From Polytrichum commune (lineage: Eukaryota > Streptophyta > Polytrichopsida > Polytrichales > Polytrichaceae), in contig OX485805.1 in the NCBI GenBank assembly GCA_950295325.1, forward strand, positions 46,212,758 to 46,276,757: a stretch of 64,000 bases of DNA, given 5' to 3'. A program made the translations under genes and the position numbers. Position 1 is the stretch's first letter; every line of letters begins with the position of its first letter. This document shows positions 24,578 through 45,860 of this stretch, one piece after another. Under the pieces are notes generated by a model that was not told where the DNA came from, did not search any database, and was given only the letters and a program-made list of their open reading frames with translations.

Positions 24578-24956
24578 CTACTTCAAATCGAAACCTAAAA
24601 ATTGTGGCACACTCAATGTGCCTAAACGACAAGAATTTTATCCAGGATTGTCAACTATGTAGCGTCCGCATGCTAGGAGAGCTTTCTCCGCATCTTTGTG
24701 CGCTTCGTCTTCATGACCTAGTTGGAAGTTCACATATGCTCGATGCTTTGGAATTTCGTAATCATCCATCGGTTCGGCCAACTCAGAAGCACGGTTTAGA
24801 TCCTCCAATGCCTCGTCATAATTGCCCATGAGCTCTTTGAGTACACCTCGCTCTTGCCAAGCTAGTGGACTATTTGGATCCGCTTCCAGCGCTTGATTAA
24901 TACTTTTGAGTGCTCCACTATAATCCCCTATCATTGTCTTGGCAAGACATACGTTC
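24578..24956 (-). pseudogene. Orphan duplicate of the TPR exon of the NB-ARC gene
   Basis: Same length (379 bases) as the last exon of the gene at 38754-39132, with the same acceptor site (GTGTAG before 24956). It still encodes the TPR-like words GDYSGAL, WQERGVLKELMGNYDEALEDL and LGHEDEAHKDAEKALL. The codon after NPG is TAA (24638-24640) where the gene has TAT, so it would end early. Paralogy extends upstream to about 25320 (intron sequence), but no ARM or NB-ARC exon follows. Without the rest of the gene it is probably dead. Confidence 0.7.
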
Positions 24957-25439
24957 CTACACACATTTTGCATAATGAAAATTTCTAGTTGAATATGTGT
25001 ATTGAATTTTTCTAACCAAATAATCATATGTGAGCAGTGTTCCAATTGGGGCCATTTCCTAGGTAGAGGAGGCCCTTAATTATTTAGAAATTCAACACCA
25101 ACAATTTTGAGAGCAAAGGGGCAATACGAGGGGGTATGGAAGAAAAATTGGGGTTGGAACTTGCTAGTTTGTGTGCTCATTCCTTGGACAACCACGACTA
25201 TTAAATGTTGCATTGGACAACCGAAGTTGTCAATGCGTATTCCATGTGTTAAGAAGTAGGTGCTTGCATTTTAATGTTGATTGTCTCATTGCTTCTTGCA
25301 TGCCTCTACTCTTCCTTAGAACACATAGTCATCACCAAAGCTTACTTGAGCACCATATAAATGAGCTCAAGGGATTCCGTAAGACCCACGGACATAAGGT
25401 AGGAAGGAGGGGAGAGATAGGGGGAATGTATACAAGAAA

Positions 25440-29305: not shown

Positions 29306-30694
29306 TTATGTTTTTTTATCATGTTTAGCGATGTATTTACCAAGGTGTCGCATGGGGCCTTTATCTGGTGTTTCTTGCATTGAGTGCCACCAATCTTTCT
29401 GTAGGTAGTATGGCGTGGGGTGTGCATGTTCATATGTGGTTATGGCATCTCTATGTTCGAGTTCACAACCCATTTTGACTAATTTGTCCGCTTGTTCGTT
29501 ACCACTAATGTTTGTGTGAACTTTGACTTTATGGAGTGTGGTGGTTTGTGTGCGGGATTGCAACATCTCAACTATAGATTCGAGTATCTTTTTGTCCGGG
29601 TGGCTATTATGTAGGGTTGGGTGTTTTGTTTGTGTGTTTAGTAGGTATAGCACATTAAGACAATCTGTGAAGATGTGTGCCGGTTCGTTTTGATATGTAG
29701 TAGTGAGGAGGCGGAGGGTATGGTGTATAGCCATTAGTTCAGCTCTTAGTATATTTTGGAGTCCGGGTAGTCTTTCTATGATTTGGAGGTTTTTAAAAGG
29801 GTTATATATGCCATATCCTGTTTTTTCTCGTTTCCAATGTCCTTGGGTTATTTCTTTGGGTGGGATGAATGATCCGTCTGTGTAATAGCATAATTGTGGT
29901 TGATATTTGAGGGGGAGGCATATGTCTTGGTTTGTGATTATGGGGACATTAGTAACTGGGGTCGTAGGCGGAGGAGGGTATGTGAGTTGGGACCATTTCT
30001 TGCTACGGTTTACTAGGGTGTTTATTGGTGTGGGTGGTGCCGTTGTGCTAAATATAGTGGGTATTTGTAAGGTATTGCCAATAATGCCCATTTGGTGTGC
30101 ATAATTTCTCGGGCCGAGTGATGTGGTTTTGTGGTGTATGCATAGTATGCGGATGTCACGGCTTTCTGTGCGGGGTTCAATTCGTAGTTTTGGTGGTATT
30201 GTGGTTTCATCGTATATAATGGTGTTCGCTTTAAAGTGTGTGATGACGTGTGAATCTGGAAAAGGGCCTACATGGGGTTGAAGGTTGTGGTACCAATTTG
30301 GGTCGGTTGTTATGAGTATTGTAATTGTATCTGGGTTATTTTGGGCTGCAAGTCTTGCCCAGTGTAGGGCTTGTTGTGTGTCATCTTCTGTGTGTGGGTG
30401 GGCATACCCGTTCCCTATCCATTTATGTTGGAACGCTGTTCCTATTGATCCGAATACTTTGTCTCGGGTAAATGGGGAGGAGAATTGTCTTAGCGTGGTA
30501 GGGCATGTTACTGGTGACGAAAAGTAGGAGTGGGTGATGTGGAAGGAGTTGATGATGTTTTCAATGATGGCATTTGGGAGGGTGTATTGTGCGAATTTGA
30601 GGGGGTCATTTTTGGGCATTCTATATTTGTACCTTTGGTACAACCATGCCACTTCTTTTTCAAATGTTTGTATGGGGGGTTCTAAGTTATGCAT
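29306..30694 (-). pseudogene. LINE ORF2 C-terminal part: methyltransferase-like segment plus RNase H
   Basis: Frame of 462 codons. Residues about 45-175 (30170-30562) carry FGSIGTAF..KW (81-92), GYAHPH (96-101), a helix with ALHWARLAA (109-117) and a strand ITILITTDPNWY (124-135). This order resembles PCIF1/Dam-like adenine methyltransferases, with AHPH where NPPF/NPPY would be catalytic. Residues 268-408 are RNase H: D273 in YTDGSF, E319 in RAELMA, D344 in FTDCLN, and H393/D403 in the HTNISGNEQAD block, so all catalytic positions are kept. A second frame at 29161-29433 carries what looks like the true C-terminus, implying a frameshift near 29330. RNase H is firm; the methyltransferase reading is a hypothesis. 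Confidence 0.7.
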
Positions 30695-31029
30695 TTTGGT
30701 TATTGCGTCTTGGTATTGTTCCCATAACCATTGTAGTCTTTGTTCCGGGATGATAACTAGGTGGCGGCCATTGTTGTCGTAAATATGTGATGCGCCATGT
30801 TGGCTTTGAATGGTATGTTGTGTACATGCGATGTCATTGTCAGGATTACATTCATTAATGTGGATATGACATAGGGGTATGTTCTGTGGGGGGGGGGGAT
30901 GTATCTTGTATCTCTCATTTGTTCTACATTAAAGTTTAGTTGTAGGATGTAGGTGAAGTGTTTGTGTTGTTTTTGGGTATAGTATCGTGTTAGGAGTAGT
31001 ATGTTATGGTTTATTGTGTCTTGGTTGTT

Positions 31030-31569: not shown

Positions 31570-33400
31570 TTATGCTTGGCTCAACCATTGTGTCTCTAAT
31601 GGTGTGGGGACGAGGGGGAATTTTTCTAGTGTGCTTCTAAGGTGGGTGTTACTAGTGGTTTTGAGTAGGAATAGTGTTCTTGTGATTGGTGATCTTAGGC
31701 AGTCGTGTTGGGTTATGCGTGGTATGTTGAGTGATCCGCCATGTTTGGCAAGTATGTGATTGATTAAGCTATTATAGATTCTTCCTAGTCTACCTTGGTC
31801 ATTGAGGGTGTTGATGAGTTGTTCACCTATACATGTTATATATGCGTTTTTTAGTGAGAAGGCTTCAGTGCCGAACATATTTTGTGGTAGTTGTGTAACG
31901 GCGTGAGATAGACATTTCGGGAGACCACATATGGTTTTGTGGAGGGCAATTATTATTTTTATCTAATTTTTTGATGGCGGGAAGTGAGTATGGTACGGCG
32001 TAGAAGTTGTAAGCGATACCGGCTCTTATGACTGTATCGACCATTTGAATTTTTTGCTTCATGATGGCTGGGCATGTGGTTAATAGTTTGCATTGTTTGA
32101 TTAATTTAGTTGTCGTAATGTGTATTTGTGTTTTCCATTGTAGTGATGACACTAGATTGATTCCGAGGTAGACATATGGTTCATGTTGGCTTAGGATAGG
32201 TATGGATTGGTTTCGGAAATTTATGTTAATGTTTCTAAGGTGTGTTTTGAAGGCTTGGGGATTTAGTTTTGATTTATTGGGGCACCCTGTGATGGCGCAT
32301 TTTGGGATTCCGATGTCCATGCATGCCCATTTACAATATTTGTCTAGTTTGTTTAGTTGGTGTTGTAGGGATGTTATATTGTTGGATATGGCCGCGAGGT
32401 CATCGGCGTAGGCTGCGGAGCTTAATTTTGTGTTGGAGGTGTTGAAGGTATATCCGTTATTACCTTGTTGTAGCCATCTAAGGAGTGGTTCAAGAAAGAT
32501 GATAAAGAGGTATGGGCTCAAGGTATCGCGTTGTATTGTTCCTCTTTGTATAGGTATTGGTTGTGTTTTGTCGAAATGTTCACCCATATATATTGTATTG
32601 GATTGTGAGTATATATTACCTACTAGTGCTACGACATCTTGTGGGTAGCCTAGGTCTTTCATAATGACAAGAAGTCTAGCATAGTCAATGGAGCCAAAGG
32701 CATTTTTGAAGTTTATGTATAGGATATAGATGTCTTGGTTGATAAGTCTTGTATCTTCTAATGATGCGATGATGGTTTGTAGTTGTCTGGCGGTGCATCT
32801 TTCAGCTCTAAAGCCCTCTTGACTATCGTGTAGAATTTGGTATTTTTCTCCGTATGAGGAGAGTATACTCGTGAATGTACTAGTGAATAGTTTATAAATT
32901 GTATTGGCGAGTGCGATTGGTCGGTAATTAGTAAGTTGGTGGGGATTTCCCTTTTTGTATAGTAATATTGTAAGGCTTGTTTTCCATGCTTCTGGAATTT
33001 GTTTTTGTTTGTAACAGTGGGTGAAGAATAGTAATAAAAGCGTATGGAATCTTGGCGGCATGTTTTTTAATATGGTGTTAGGTGTCTTATCGGGTCTGGG
33101 GGTTTTACCATTGGCTAAATTTTTGAGGTATATATCATATGTTTCTTGGTCTAGATATGTGTGCAAGGGAATTAGGGCCTCACCTATCTTTTCTAGAGTA
33201 TATCCATTTAGGTCGTGCCATGGGTATTGTCTAACTCCGCATACACATTGTTGTATATGATCTGGTTGGTAATAACATGTTGGAACGGTTGGCCTATTAC
33301 TGATGGATTGTTGGGCATGTATTTCTTGTGCAATGGCCTTTGGGCTTGTAAGGATATTGTTGAATCTATTTATGAGACAATCGAGTGGGGGGGTTTCCAT
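31570..33400 (-). pseudogene. LINE ORF2 reverse transcriptase
   Basis: Main frame 31865-33400 (511 codons), continued in another frame at 31570-31878. RT landmarks in order: GKTPRPDKTP (98-107), NYRPIALANTIYKL (158-171), SQEGFRAERCTARQL (193-207), motif A YINFKNAFGSID (228-239), motif B GTIQRDTLSPYLF (287-299) and YADD (331-334). Motif A has Asn230 where the metal-binding Asp is expected and Gly236 where the second Asp (KAFD) is usual. Motif B has R for G. These changes should abolish polymerase activity. Confidence 0.85.
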
Positions 33401-34049
33401 GTTTTTGAAGACTTTTCTGTTGATTTTTTTGGGACTCTTAACATAGAGTTGTTGGTATTTTGATATGTTTTTTTTTATTTGTTTGGTAATATAGTCGGTT
33501 GTGATTTTGCGGGCTTTGTTTTTTGCTTCTTTAGCGATATTTGCTAAGTTTTCTATCCATGTTTCATTTGTGTGGGGGGGGTGTTTGGTGGTGAGGGTAT
33601 CGTGGCGTGCCTATGGTTGTTAATTTCTTGTGTGATAATGGGATGGGTATACCAATTTGGATTGTTTTTTATAATGTATATGGCTTTCCGGATGAGGTGA
33701 TAGGTAGAGAGATGTGTTTTACATTCTTTTTGGGATTTCTTTGGGAGGTATCCACCTTGCTTAGTGATCCTATGTGGCAGTGTGGGAATGGATGGGCACT
33801 GCATGTCTCGAGGACTATGGAGGTAATATTGTCGGTAAGGGTGTTTAATGAATTGCAAGCTTGTTGCCATTGTTCGTTTGTTAGGTGGTTATTTTTTAAT
33901 AGGTGTATAAGCTCATCTATTTAGTTGGAGTTGTTTTCGAAGAATTTGGTGTGGAAGTTTTGTAGTTTTTCTTTTGGAATGGGGTTGAGTATTCTTGGTG
34001 GCGGTTCGGAGTTTGTAGTGGGAAATTTGGCGATTAGTGTGTTTGGGGG

Positions 34050-38459: not shown

Positions 38460-38624
38460 CTTGTTGGCCACCTTGAAGAAGACGCTAACTCGCGTTTCCA
38501 TGGGTGCTCAATATTATTAACCACTTGACATTGATATGTACAGGCAAACTTGTCTATAACTAAATGTCATCAATTGTGTTAATTACCGTAATGAGTTCCT
38601 TGAGGTCCAAAACTTCAACTACTT
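38460..38624. repeat. Right copy of 165-bp LINE-flanking direct repeat
   Basis: Partner of 29013-29177. The host sequence continues without a break into 38625-38750, matching the uninterrupted paralogue at 22405-22545. Confidence 0.8.
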
Positions 38625-38753: not shown

Positions 38754-41700
38754 CTACTTCAAATCGTAGCCTAGAAATTGTGGCACACTCAATGTACCTA
38801 AAAGTCGAAGGTTATATCCAGGATCGTCAATGAAGTAGTGTCCGGGTGCTAGGAGAGCTTTCTCCGCGTCTTTGTGTGCTTCGTCTTCGTGACCTAGCTT
38901 GAAGTTTACATATGCTCGATGCTTTAGAACTTCATAATCATCCACCGGTTCGGCCAACTTAGAAGCACGGTTTAGATCCTCCAATGCCTCTTCATAATTG
39001 CCCATGAGCTCTTTTAGTACACCTCGCTCTTGCCAAGAGATTGAATCAGTTGGATTCGCTTCCAGTGCCCGATTAGCACTTTCAAGTGCTCCACTATAAT
39101 CCCCTATCATTGTTTTGGCAAAACATTCGAACCTACACACATTTTGCAGAAGGAGGATTTCTAGTGAATATGTATATTGAAAGTTTTCTAACCTAATTAG
39201 AATATGCGAGCCGTGTTCCAAGTGGGGCCATTACCTAGTTAGAGGAGGCCCTTAATTAATTTAGAAATTCAATACCAACAATTTTTGAGAGCGAAGGGGC
39301 ATTAAGAGGGGGTATGGAAGCAAAATTGGGGTTGGGACTTTCTAGCTTGTGTGCTCATTCGTTGGACAATCACGACCATTGAAACTAAATGAAGGGTTGC
39401 ATTGGACAACCGAAGTTGTCAATGAGTATTTCATGTGTTAAGAAGTAGGTGCATGTTCTTTAATGTTGGTTATCTCATTACTTCTTGCATGCCTCTACTC
39501 TTCCTCTAGAATTTTCCTTCTCTCCAATTTATAGGGTATTGGGAAGGGGGGTCCACTAATGGAACAAAAGTGGGTGAAATAAGCAGAGAAAATATTGTGC
39601 ATGTAATTAACGACACAAGTGAAACCTAGCAAAGTTTAAGGTGCAAAGGTCTTACGATTTATGAATACTGTCATTATCCGGATCATCGAAGTCGGCCGAC
39701 TCAAAATCTGCAAGGGCTTCCTTGTAGAGTTTGAGTTCCATGTTGACTTGCCCCCGGGTCACCTTTGCTGCGATCGAATTCAACTGGACCTTGTTATACT
39801 TCTCGGGGTCCATATAAGTCAGTATACGAATGGCTCCACATTGCATATCATCATCGACGTCGTCATGCAGGAAATTCTCCAATGTGGCCATGATCTCTGG
39901 ATTTTGAGTTGAAATCAAGGCCCGGTTCATCTTGTTGGCAGCAACGAGAGTCGACAAGCAAGTGATCAACCACATCGGTGTCAAAAGGGCGTCTTCCTTG
40001 CCATGCGTGGCTTCCAAATGCCAGCCAAGCACGGAAACCAAGCTGGTCGAATTCATGAGTTTTAGCGAAGTCTCCTCGTCGTCTGCAATACGTAACAAGG
40101 CAAAAGCCACTCTGGTTTTTAGCCGAGGCTCGTCTTCGGGTTGGTCCATATCAAGCGCACTCACCAATGTGTCGATAAGCCCTTCGATGCTCGCGATTTT
40201 GATTCGCGTGCTTTTGGATCTCACCAATTGACCTAAGCACTTAATAGCGAACGAGTGAATCTTAATATCGCTCTTGTCCGGTTGAAGTATGGCTTCTAGT
40301 AGTGTTTGCAGCACTGCAACATTGTCCAAGATGGAGTCGCAATTTGCAGAATGGGCGAGGCTAGATAATGCCCAAAGCGCTATGATTTTTAGGTCAGCCG
40401 GTACTTTGGGTGAGAGCATATTGACCAACCTTTCGTGAGTGAGTCTTGTGTGTATGGTCAATATGGGCTCCACTGAATCCCAAACCCGCGACATAGCTAT
40501 CAAAGCTACACACACCTGAGTGAATGTTTCCTTCTCTTCGAGTAATTTTGCGCAACTTTGATCGTCCAGCTCCATTTGAGTGATGAACCTCATAATGACC
40601 TGCACATCAATAGTAGAAAAATTGATTAGTCTTTATGTGGTTGTGAATACGAGGAAGTCCTCAAGATAGCAAGAGGAGGATTCTTAGAGAGAAGTTCTTA
40701 TTACACTGACTATGGTAAACACTGTGGGTCATACTATTCAACTTATTTCCACATGTGGATGCACAATGTGTACACCCAAAAGTTTGGGGATAATATTGTG
40801 GATGCACAATATTTAACATAAGAGGTTCGCGCTGTAGAGTACAATATATCTATTGGGTTGATAGTAGTGGGCATAAAAAAGACTTAAAACTTAAGGGGAG
40901 AAAGTGGGTACATCACAGGGCAATGACAAGTGTAAATAGGGCTAAACACAAATACGTGCACGATGCTCGATATTGTGGGCCACATTATATGGTTGCCAGG
41001 GTCAGTAACACTAAACATACGCCCACGATATTTAACATAATTTGTACAATCATGACAAGGGTACAAGTGTCAAAGTACATCAGTGACTCAATTCCAACAC
41101 AAGCAGACAACTATGTCCTTCAAAAAAAATTACTGATGGCATTATGCTAAGGTTCGAAAACACAACACTATCTGGATTTTGTATTCTGGTTCTGTCGGGG
41201 CTGGGGCAGATTATGTACCCAATTTAGATCACAAAGGACCTTGGAATATCGTTGATCATATCAAAATCACGCGTTGTTGAAATTTCATGAACTCAACATT
41301 GACTCCAAATGACGGATTCGCTACTTTCAGTAACTTCCGTGAAATGATTCGAGCACATTAAGCTTCTCAAGTGCTCAATGTGTCCATTACAGGTGCTTCA
41401 TTCAACTTGTCCTCTACACACATCTCTACTTCAAAGATTATTTGTGCTAGATCTCAATTCAAGCAAAATGGTATGAAGGGGTCAAGAGAAGCGTATTCAC
41501 ATCACCTTTGACGCAAGCTGATGAATTCGTATTTTCCAGTTGTCTCCATTTTGTGAAGGTAGTAAAATGTGGACAAAATGTCGAACGGCTTCCTTTAGGT
41601 TCTCGATCCTTACGTGTTGCTCGAGTGGAAGATTGAGCGTCTTGGAGACCTCCATTATCGTCTTGGAAGCCTCAGCAGTGAAGATATCCTTCTTTGGGTT

Positions 41701-43680
41701 GGCATAGAGAACAGAAAGGGCTCTCGCAAGTTCGCTCTCTTCGCTTAATACGTCATCACCAGATGTCATGTTGTTGTGTACCATCATACTGCAAAGTATT
41801 TTGCTAACCTCATCCTTGAATTCTTTCAAAATCACGTACGGGAGGAGGCCCTTCATCGTCCATTCATTTTCGAATTTGACCTGAATCGGGGGTTCCGACA
41901 TGGAAATCTCAACCAAGCTGACCGAAATGAAATCGCAGTCCTTGAGGTGTTTGAGGGACGTCTTGAAAGCAACTCCAGAGTATTTGGGAGTGATGTGCTT
42001 GAAGAAGATCACAAGAATAGGTTCTGGCAGAGCTTCAGCTTCACAAAAGGCCATACAAAACAAAAGGTTTTGAGCATCAGATGGCAAACCTTTGATGGCC
42101 ATGACATACGCCGCAATCACATTGTCATATCTCACATGCCCAAAAACATTATCCTCGTCATCGTCATCATTTTGTTGGATTGACATACGCTCATAGAAAC
42201 CTTCATAGACCTCAGTCCAGGAGCTACTATCATCCGGGTTATGGTCAATTTGTCTTCCAATAGTTTTAAGAGCCACAGGCAGCGAGTCTGCTTTTGATAT
42301 TATGTTGTCTGCAACATCCTGTAAAACACCAACTTTTGAAAACTGTTAAGATTGAGTCGATTCACTGGATTTAGAAGTTCAAAATCTGGACATGGTGCAA
42401 TATGGTAGACTCGTGATGTATGTCACCTAATTATATGACTTCAACAAGTTGTCAAATGATTTGAAGCGTGAACTTCACGGATGTGTTTTTTCACATGTAG
42501 AACGTGTCACAATTGGAAATGCTTTAGACACAATAATACCAAAGGTGCATAAGAATCGGATACTCACTTGAACACTGCTGGGAATCTCCCCATTTGGCAA
42601 GTTCGAAACATAGTTACCGAGAATTTGACGTGCTTCCTCGAGTGTAGGTTTCTGCATGTGGACTTCTGTTGCACCGGGACAAATTCCTCTGCCACCACGA
42701 CCGGAGGTGATAAGATACTTCACCTTCTTTGCATCCAAAACCCTGAGATCCCTCACCAGTTTCGCATCATGCACATCATCGAGAATTATGAGAAGATTTA
42801 ACTCGAGAAGCCGTCGTTGCAGTTTTTTGAGATGAGACAAATCAGTCTTGCCTTCTGGATTTGAATCCTTCCTCAAATCACCTTTACCCTCTTCATTCGA
42901 CTCAGATGTAATGTCAAACCCCAAATTCTTCAGCAACTTGATACAGACAGAGCCACTGTTTGCTTTCGGACCACATGGTAGAAATTGTACCCCATCTGTA
43001 AACAATTGCGTGGATGGTCCTGACTCTGGTGAAGATTTTGCAATTTGTCGGTAGTGTTGAGCTAGGGATTTGGCAAGACAAGTTTTACCTGACCCGAGAC
43101 CTCCATACAGAGTGACAACTTGATTCCCTTTCATATCCTCCAAATGTTTCTTCACCGATTCTTCGGTCCCAGACAGTTTCACAATTTCCTTGTCCAGAGT
43201 ATTTTGCAACATATCTGGAAGCTCGTCAGCAATCCTTTCAAACATCAAGTCAGCCTCCTGCTTCTCTCTAATTCGTGAAGGTATTCTTTCGAACGCGCGA
43301 ACCACTTTGTCCATGCAATCTTTCAAAGGGATCGGAAACGCACGTGCTTTGAACATGAATGACAGGCAAGGGATTTGGAAAGCGTGGCTCGCCTTGTACA
43401 TGAATGAGAGACAACCATTGCTTTGCAATTCCTCCAATTTCTTGCTCTCTTCCTGGAGGCATTTTACGGCGATCGCGAGTGGCTCCCGCACAATTTCTTC
43501 TTGTGCTAAACCATTCCTTCTTATGGCTTCCACCCACCAGACTTTCCTCTCTTCCATTTTGGCTTTCAGGTCTTTGAAATCTTCCAAATCCTTTGAGGCT
43601 GCGTACCACTCATCCTCACCGTCTTTTACAATTTTTGTAGCTTCTATTGCTAATGTTCCAAGTAATGTGGATATGTCCAT
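38754..43680 (-). CDS. NB-ARC receptor-like protein with ARM-like and TPR-like C-terminus
   Basis: Four exons on the minus strand, 43680-42568, 42318-41506, 40599-39656 and 39132-38754, all with GT-AG borders, join in frame to about 1082 residues. The start is the ATG at 43680 (MDISTLLGTL); an extra 5' exon cannot be excluded. Residues 1-185 are helical and unassigned. NB-ARC motifs: P-loop GGLGSGKT (193-200), kinase-2 LLIILDDVHD (296-305), RNBS-B-like KYLITSGR (321-328) and a GLPL-like SLPVA (383-387) at the start of exon 2. I see no clear MHD motif. Exon 3 (643-957) is made of helical ARM/HEAT-like repeats (ALWALSSLAHS, IKCLGQLVRSKS, VAFALLRIADDEE). Exon 4 has TPR-like units (GDYSGALESANRALEANP, GNYEEALEDLNRASKL, LGHEDEAHKDAEKALL). 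No LRR is seen. It is probably an intracellular STAND-type immune or signalling switch. Confidence 0.8.
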
Positions 43681-43699: not shown

Positions 43700-45860
43700 C
43701 ATGATAAGTTGTAACAAAGTCAGTATACTACTTACTCAGCGCAATGTAGTGTTATTAAAGAAATTGAGCACTACGTAAACTTTGTTGAAAAATCAGCAAC
43801 ATGATGGACCAAGATGAACTTGACCGACTATTTGCAACTCCCCACCCCAGCCATACTGATCCACTTAGTGGGTTGATTGGAACCTGAACCTCTAATGATG
43901 ACCTTCTTGGAACTCTGCTCTTCTAGTGAAGTTTTCAATACCCCAACAAAGCATTCGAGGTTTAACCCCACTCGATCATTTGTCAATCACAAAATTATCG
44001 TAAGTTCACAATATTTAGAAGTTTGGGTGTGACGAGGAAACCCCCCTATTCTGACTACAAATACTAAAAAGCTCAAGAAAATATATACTCATCAAGGCAA
44101 AGGTTTCAGAAACTCAACGTAAACTCTGTAGAGTTGTATAACATTCTCTAGCACCAAGGAAGCTCAGTGCGGATTATGTTAAGAACCTCATGCAAGTAGT
44201 GAGCAGAAAGCACTTGTGTATCCAAACAATGAAACCCACCTTACCCAGGACTCTTTGGAAAATTATTTTAATTCCACAAATTCCTTAAAGCCCATCTGAT
44301 TCTCCCTCCACCAAAGGGATATGGAAAACGTCACAAGTAACCCAAATATGTGCAAAAGCATCCACAGCTTCCTCTTCACTCTCAACTCACTGTCACCAGA
44401 AACTCTTGCTTGCAAATCCTTAACTCTCAACACTGTCTTCACATTGTGCAGACAATAAAATGCCACAACACAGAACGATGGACACAAGTGGAGTGGAAGT
44501 GTAACAGACGTGCCTTGTCCTTTTCAGGGGAGACTATTAGCAGACGCTGCAACAGTGGCAACTCCGGACAAACAGGAAGGCGCACGTAAAATACAGTAGA
44601 TGTGCCTTTAGATGGATACTTTTCTACTTCAAATTTACGCCCACTTCTCGTAGAATACTACGAATCACGCAACTAGTGCGAAATGCTAAGCTAATCCAAG
44701 TGCTCCCTGTAGCCATTTCTCTGGAGCTCGTATGAATATCTTATGCATTATCAAAGTAAAGATTCTTGTACTCATCAAGTGGTCATATACTGGAGGTCCC
44801 ATCAATCATGTTGACTATTGAGCAAGCTAGAATGGGTAGCATCTTTTGAGAGCGTAGTCCTCTCTCCTTTCAACACGTGTATTATTGGTGCCAATTCTTA
44901 GATCCACACCTAACCACATACAACTTAAATATAGGTGTCCAAATTCGTGTTGTGTTGGATTTAGGCACGACTACGTTGTGGCCAAACTTATGTTTGGTGA
45001 GTTATGCCAAAGGGTGAAAGTTCCTGATATGACATAATAGTGACCTACCGGGGGAGAGGACAACTTGGGGTGAAAGTGTTGATTATCATTGTAGGAGCTT
45101 GGTGTTTGTTATTTCTAACCAAATTAACCACTAAATCAGAGTCACGGGCCATGAATTATTATAGTGAGCTTGAGCTGGGATGAATTTGTAAGCAACCTAG
45201 AGGGGGCATGCTTTTATTATCACCTTCGGTAGGTGTTACAAAACCAAACCCCATGCATAAGCTCAATTTATGGCAATGATAATATCATGATGGAGCAGCA
45301 TTGACAAAAGGTATTGAACTTTCAATACGAAAGTGAAAAGGTTTATCTGAGAAAGATCTTGTATGTTTCTTAATTATAGGAATGTATGGCAAATATTGAT
45401 ACAAATGTGCCTTGCAGTCAAACATCCACTCAATTGGTCATGGCACTAGAAGAAATGATCATGTCCAAATGAACCCCACATGGTAGTTCTTTTTGCTCTG
45501 AAAATTGGCCCCAGTAGTTGTTTGGTGTAAACTTGCATCTCAATTGAGATGGCCAAGTGGAACCCTCGGTAAGATAGTGGCCATGTCACTTGTTTTGGTG
45601 GCCTCTATTGTTTTGAGGTGACCACCACCCATGTCGGTTTTGTACACCATTCGCCAGACATACCAATTGAGGGTGGATAGTCTGGGTAGCACCGTGGAGC
45701 CCTCCAACCTTGGTTGTGTGATTGTTCATGATAGGGGTGCGCAAGAGGGAGGCAAGGAGTTGTAACCTTACCCACATGGTGTGATATACCTTGACGAAGA
45801 GACTTATTGATTGAATTATGCAAGAATGAAAGACTAATCATACCGAGTTGTACTTATAAG
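43700..45860. other. Upstream of the NB-ARC gene, no gene supported
   Basis: A 74-codon minus-strand frame at 44263-44487 has one hydrophobic stretch (LLHIFGLLVTFSISLWW). Its surroundings are related to 49650-49900. It could be an upstream exon or leader of NB-ARC genes, or chance. The rest shows nothing. Confidence 0.3.

Follow-up and report, generated by a model that had tools for sequence, protein, structure and literature searches.

A gene on the minus strand of a 64,000-nucleotide stretch of the moss Polytrichum commune genome (assembly GCA_950295325.1, contig OX485805.1, positions 46,212,758 to 46,276,757 of the forward strand; the whole stretch is called the window below) probably represents one intact four-exon member of a small tandem family. 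Its product would be an NTPase switch of the STAND (signal transduction ATPases with numerous domains) type, in which a superhelix of armadillo (ARM) and tetratricopeptide (TPR) repeats takes the place of the leucine-rich repeats (LRRs). A preliminary description, made from the sequence of the window alone, had spoken of an NB-ARC protein ending in ARM-like and TPR-like repeats. That architecture is borne out by a Pfam match to NB-ARC, by armadillo entries among the Foldseek matches, and by a match to TPR_2 above its cut-off, as follows.

The four exons join at GT-AG sites in phases 0, 0, and 2, in agreement with the in-phase joining first described, to give 1082 codons. The gene runs from an ATG at 43680 to a stop codon ending at 38754, which is exactly the span originally delimited. 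Taken apart, exons 1 and 2 match NB-ARC at 34 and 17.9 bits, respectively. Once joined, the two yield a single match of 61.2 bits (cut-off 23.5) that covers profile positions 6–239 of 248, and the exon 1/2 junction is thereby supported.

Whole-genome protein searches at E <= 1e-5 place exons 1, 2, and 3 at four loci, which share a strand of contig C3 and lie in a stretch of about 125 kb, and the three exons occur only together, at all four. Two copies besides that of the window are open over 1082 amino acids (aa), with identical splice dinucleotides. The fourth, L003, is broken: there is a stop in exon 1, exons 1 and 2 are split into displaced pieces, and the exons contain gaps. Exon 4 is found at the four copy loci and once more in the window, in the solo remnant of a fifth copy, whose exon 4 (24949–24581) has one in-frame stop. 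Homology to the window copy extends upstream of the gene for more than 5 kb in copy L001 and for more than 4.3 kb in L003, up to the limit of the sequence retrieved there, and is present in pieces in L002; the copies are therefore recent segmental duplicates. Since they are alike for kilobases upstream, conservation there says nothing about an additional exon, and a search for one yielded two short upstream minus-strand frames lacking a Pfam match. The short upstream frame at 44657–44439 on the minus strand, for which Pfam gives no match, resembles by eye the last part of a histidine-kinase ATPase domain. Shallow searches of the genome, which covered 126 of 466 NB-ARC candidates and ten further loci caught by an ARM_ARMC5 search, turned up no gene with the NB-ARC-ARM-TPR order apart from the four copies.

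The coding sequence is under constraint when the exons are taken together. The counts refer to the three intact copies, L003 being left out. Among these, 159 changes in 3246 bases have produced no stop codon, against 5.6 expected (P 0.003). The exons are of equal length and their pairwise alignments are gapless, whereas the introns show 11 gap events in 1678 bases, as measured on the window copy (Fisher P 7e-6). The intron rate predicts 21 gaps for the exons overall and 8.7 for exons 3 and 4; none is observed in either case.

The NB-ARC domain has a P-loop, GGLGSGKT, at aa 193 (window 43104–43081) and a Walker B motif, LIILDDV, at aa 297 (window 42792–42772), and SLPV stands at aa 383 in place of GLPL. 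All three intact copies retain the P-loop lysine and the aspartates of Walker B. The MHD site is different. These copies read VHN or EHN in a MAFFT alignment and FEN when the site is read from its strand context, the alignment being uncertain at this point, versus [MIV]HD in 14 of the 14 other aligned NB-ARC rows of the genome (12 of the 19 sampled loci discussed below, plus L023 and L024). The best long match of the window gene to those rows is L004, at 25% identity (E 2e-8). The altered MHD-type site suggests that the switch is held differently. Compared by sequence with solved structures, exons 1 and 2 give weak matches only, at E 0.11 and higher.

Exon 3 scores below the Pfam cut-offs, with 27.5 of 79.9 bits for ARM_ARMC5 (E 2.5e-6) and 17.3 of 20.6 bits for Arm. 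Its AlphaFold2 model has a mean predicted local distance difference test (pLDDT) score of only 62. In a Foldseek search with this model, 46 of the 50 matches listed are designed armadillo proteins, Vac8, karyopherin/importin-alpha, APC, or Armc8 (best E 7.8e-5); the titles of the other four (4rzp, 4rv1 twice, and 9ijj) name no fold. With VIA-align, CAND1 and WapL are level with the armadillo chains at Z of about 15, a value that helical repeats reach easily. Because ARM and HEAT repeats are not separable by Z, "ARM/HEAT-type solenoid" is the safe wording for what the model of exon 3 predicts. Comparison by sequence with solved structures gave no match at E 0.01 and one at 0.27, and no relatives of exon 3 were found in plasmids or in prokaryote genomes, where the search was for close relatives only.

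Exon 4 alone matches TPR_2 at 47.8 bits (cut-off 27) and TPR_9 at 31.4 bits. Joining exons 3 and 4 raises these scores to 50.1 and 34.5 bits, which lends modest support to the exon 3/4 junction. A simple scan recognizes TPR-like units at aa 918, 987, and 1023, each with five of eight consensus positions. The unit that would cross the exon 3/4 junction was read by eye, and there the scan prefers another register (aa 963). The array comprises about four TPRs, the first of them, at aa 918, lying inside exon 3. The preliminary description held that each exon adds one module; the order of the domains is as it proposed, but the module boundary and the exon boundary do not coincide, since the TPR array begins within exon 3.

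No LRRs are found at the C-terminal end, as had been noted at the outset: in Pfam searches with the protein divided into two halves, no LRR family appears at E <= 1. Nor do four minus-strand frames scanned downstream of the gene encode the LRR exon that the preliminary description had named as a counter-case, and the stop is at the same position in the three intact copies. No TIR family is matched at E <= 1 in Pfam, though TIR is detected by the same means in locus L009 of this genome.

The other NB-ARC genes sampled in the genome are built differently. Of 466 candidates, 126 were scored; the NB-ARC of the window was not among the scored ones, so this survey may miss weak NB-ARC genes. From the 126 places listed, 19 (L004–L022) were chosen by hand rather than at random, and all 19 have LRRs after the NB-ARC, eight by Pfam (L008, L009, L010, L013, L015, L019, L021, and L022) and eleven by eye. 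Pfam provides the class labels for L004 (kinase), L009 (TIR), and L019, L021, and L022 (RPW8/Rx_N); the other rows were labelled by eye. These kinase-, TIR-, and coiled-coil (CC)-NB-ARC-LRR genes share with the window gene an NB-ARC with P-loop and Walker B. Unlike the window gene, they carry LRRs and, in 12 of the 12 aligned, an MHD-type motif. Two further loci near one end of contig C2, L023 (C2:19500-27500) and L024 (C2:49800-58000), encode NB-ARC, LRRs, and then ARM-like repeats; L023 contains a twentieth of the 126 listed places. Like the window gene, they combine an NB-ARC with ARM-like repeats in a single open frame, with the ARM repeats below or near the Pfam cut-off, and they differ from it in having LRRs between the two, a single exon, and no TPR listed. 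A frame upstream in L023 is by eye alpha/beta-hydrolase-like (Pfam gives only E 0.06–0.25), with GHGLG where the GxSxG nucleophile motif is expected.

The genome search with ARM_ARMC5, which returned 35 rows, is a poor net, for it listed just one of the four known copies. Ten of its loci besides the window gene were looked at, the best-scoring row not being among them. In eight of these (L025–L032), the frames of the stretch fetched contain no P-loop pattern, except for one spurious 30-aa frame; the other two are L023 and L024. The nearest TPRs outside the family belong to TPR-rich genes on C3, one of which also encodes a kinase domain; identity is 35–37% in the four best rows. L036 (C3:54742600-54746400) and L037 (C3:56793900-56797600) are single-exon genes with TPR arrays, L036 ending in a protein kinase domain, and there are several similar places on C3.

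The gene model is weakest at the exon 2/3 junction, which rests on phase, splice sites, and co-linearity. In each of the three intact copies, exon 2 continues for two codons beyond its donor site and then meets a stop, and an ATG is the third codon of exon 3. Of the three introns, moreover, intron 2 is the longest and has diverged the most: the intact copies show 77 substitutions and 8 gap events in it. These features would suit a pair of neighbouring genes, one for NB-ARC that ends just past exon 2 and one for ARM-TPR whose start lies in exon 3. On the other hand, a phase-matched GT-AG pair is present at the junction in all three intact copies, a T-rich tract precedes the acceptor, and NB-ARM fusions are known in other plants. 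The ARM exon also occurs nowhere without the NB exons, an argument that is not independent, the copies being recent segmental duplicates. We consider two separate genes, the outcome that the preliminary description had set against its own model, improbable. That the family is decaying, with the window copy open by chance and a working protein no longer made, is more doubtful still. Decay would suit the broken state of one full-length copy out of four and the reduction of a fifth to a remnant; the pairwise ratios of nonsynonymous to synonymous substitution rates (dN/dS) are 0.71, 0.71, and 0.91, and the canonical control motifs of the NB-ARC are altered; against decay stand the missing stops and the missing exon gaps described above.

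Several further observations, like the weakness of the exon 2/3 junction, count against one intact gene for a receptor-like switch. The stop test is not significant for any exon alone (P 0.38, 0.12, 0.18, and 0.51 for exons 1–4), and exons 3 and 4 together give 0.09. By exon, dN/dS ranges from 0.97 to 1.49 in exon 2 and is 0.23, 0.31, and 0.85 in exon 4. From such values, constraint is either weak overall or mixed with diversification, and slow decay would be compatible with them. Exon 1 is less variable than exons 2–4 in protein and in DNA (P 8e-5 and 7e-6). Since the DNA varies likewise, this contrast cannot be claimed as selection for a conserved executor and a variable sensor; it may be mutational or come from gene conversion. 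No listed Pfam match begins before aa 160, and comparison of the N-terminal region with CC/RPW8-type domains of the same genome, a weak test with three sequences, gave an hhalign probability of 0.1. The structure model of exon 1, made from the single sequence, has a mean pLDDT of 37 and is too poor for naming a fold.

If the four-exon gene is accepted, its product might still serve as a regulator and not as a receptor. Docking scaffolds are commonly built from ARM and TPR domains, and an RLS1-like NB-ARM protein could use its ARM-TPR part to dock a fixed cellular partner while the NB-ARC acts as a gate on cell death, senescence, or organelle turnover, without any pathogen sensing of its own. 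The altered NB-ARC control residues, with no canonical MHD in any intact copy, would be in keeping with such a role, as would the reported ties of rice RLS1, an NB-ARM protein, to leaf senescence, cell death, and possibly immune regulation. A conserved regulator would not usually show recent tandem duplication, a broken copy among the duplicates, and weak constraint, and we regard this role as rather unlikely. The birth-and-death pattern of the family fits an immune or self/non-self role better than housekeeping, to judge from the recent copies, the broken copy, the solo remnant, and pairwise dN/dS of 0.7–0.9.

The features discussed are collected in Table 1. Beside the 3′ end of the gene, minus-strand frames at 38484–29306 resemble a non-LTR-type retrotransposon and may belong to a single element; the composition is strongly strand-skewed between 30 and 36 kb. 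A PCIF1-like stretch is odd within an element of this kind. Elsewhere in the window, two long minus-strand frames, 3464–2220 and 17278–15986, look much alike by eye, and both contain two Dof-type zinc-ribbon stretches (Dof-type matches of 68.7 and 68.9 bits, cut-off 26.6).

Table 1. Exons and introns of the NB-ARC-ARM-TPR gene and other features, in window coordinates.
Feature	Position	Strand	Description
Exon 1 (aa 1–371)	42568..43680	-	Predicted helical N-terminal region (~aa 1–165) and first part of NB-ARC
Intron 1	42319..42567	-	GT-AG, 249 bp, phase 0
Exon 2 (aa 372–642)	41506..42318	-	Remaining NB-ARC, winged-helix-like part, linker; without canonical MHD
Intron 2	40600..41505	-	GT-AG, 906 bp, phase 0
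Exon 3 (aa 643 to split codon 957)	39656..40599	-	Predicted ARM/HEAT-type alpha-solenoid (~aa 643–917), first TPR, probably start of second
Intron 3	39133..39655	-	GT-AG, 523 bp, phase 2
Exon 4 (split codon 957 to aa 1082, including stop)	38754..39132	-	Remaining TPR array (to ~aa 1056), short tail
Solo remnant of fifth copy	24578..25321	-	Limited to exon 4 and the 3′ portion of intron 3, ~87% identical DNA
Reverse transcriptase	31868-33610	-	Frame in retrotransposon-like region
RNase H preceded by a PCIF1_WW match (39.1 bits, cut-off 31.1)	29309-30928	-	Further frame in retrotransposon-like region

Proteins that join NB-ARC to repeats other than LRRs have been described in plants. CC-NB-ARMs are conserved in plant genomes, and rice RLS1 is a possible regulator of immunity (Castel et al., PMC12512272); titles of works cited in PMC12512272 and PMC10586772 link RLS1 to leaf senescence and cell death. 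An NB-armadillo class has been set apart, with NB-ARM proteins in Selaginella, and kinase-NLRs (nucleotide-binding LRR proteins) are reported from P. patens (PMC7145615); the kinase-NB-ARC-LRR genes of the present genome fit a moss. Kourelis et al. (PMC8559963) report that, in Selaginella, integrated domains are predominantly ARM-type repeats. The NLRs of non-flowering plants include proteins with ankyrin, TPR, and ARM repeats, and TNPs (TIR-NB-ARC-TPR) have been described (PMC10586772). NB-ARM and NB-TPR proteins are thus already known. A literature search covering the accessible parts of PMC12512272, PMC8559963, PMC7145615, and PMC10586772, with most plant papers outside its reach, found no NB-ARC protein in which ARM repeats are followed by TPRs.

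Compared by description, the CC-NB-ARM proteins (rice RLS1, Selaginella NB-ARM) are like the window gene in having ARM-type repeats after the NB-ARC, outside the NB-LRR plan. In contrast to them, the predicted solenoid of the window gene runs on into about four TPRs, its N-terminal region, predicted to be helical, gave no match to a CC model in Pfam or in the weak three-sequence comparison, and the gene is part of a cluster of several recent copies. With the TNPs it shares an NB-ARC with C-terminal TPRs; it differs in the lack of a TIR match and in the ARM/HEAT-type solenoid between NB-ARC and TPR. Set against plant NLRs in general, it has the NB-ARC without the C-terminal LRR and without a canonical MHD motif. 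The preliminary description went on to suggest a lineage-specific class of STAND receptors. A STAND protein with ARM/TPR repeats in the place of LRRs is the best anatomical reading; a class specific to the lineage does not follow, as NB-ARM proteins are known elsewhere in plants.

By analogy with the NLR family, a mode of action can be sketched for the single four-exon gene. The C-terminal superhelix, made of the ARM/HEAT-type solenoid and about four TPRs, would occupy the position of the LRRs in plant NLRs. It may bind a protein partner, either a host protein or a pathogen product, and help to keep the NB-ARC in an inactive state. Once that partner binds or is lost, the NB-ARC would be free to exchange its nucleotide and assemble, and the N-terminal helices might then relay the signal, as in plant NLRs. 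The ARM/TPR surface would, by the same analogy, be the sensor. It is tempting to go further and propose lineage-restricted moss STAND receptors with a continuous ARM-TPR superhelix as sensor, no canonical MHD latch, and tandem birth and death like that of NLR clusters, a proposal that we offer tentatively, as a possibility with less than an even chance.

If the gene model holds, this moss has an NB-ARC switch with two stacked non-LRR solenoids alongside its LRR receptors. The three intact copies and the broken one provide convenient material for a search for the partners of the ARM-TPR surface, and the arrangement, if true, would bear on the need for LRRs in sensing by plant NLR-like proteins.

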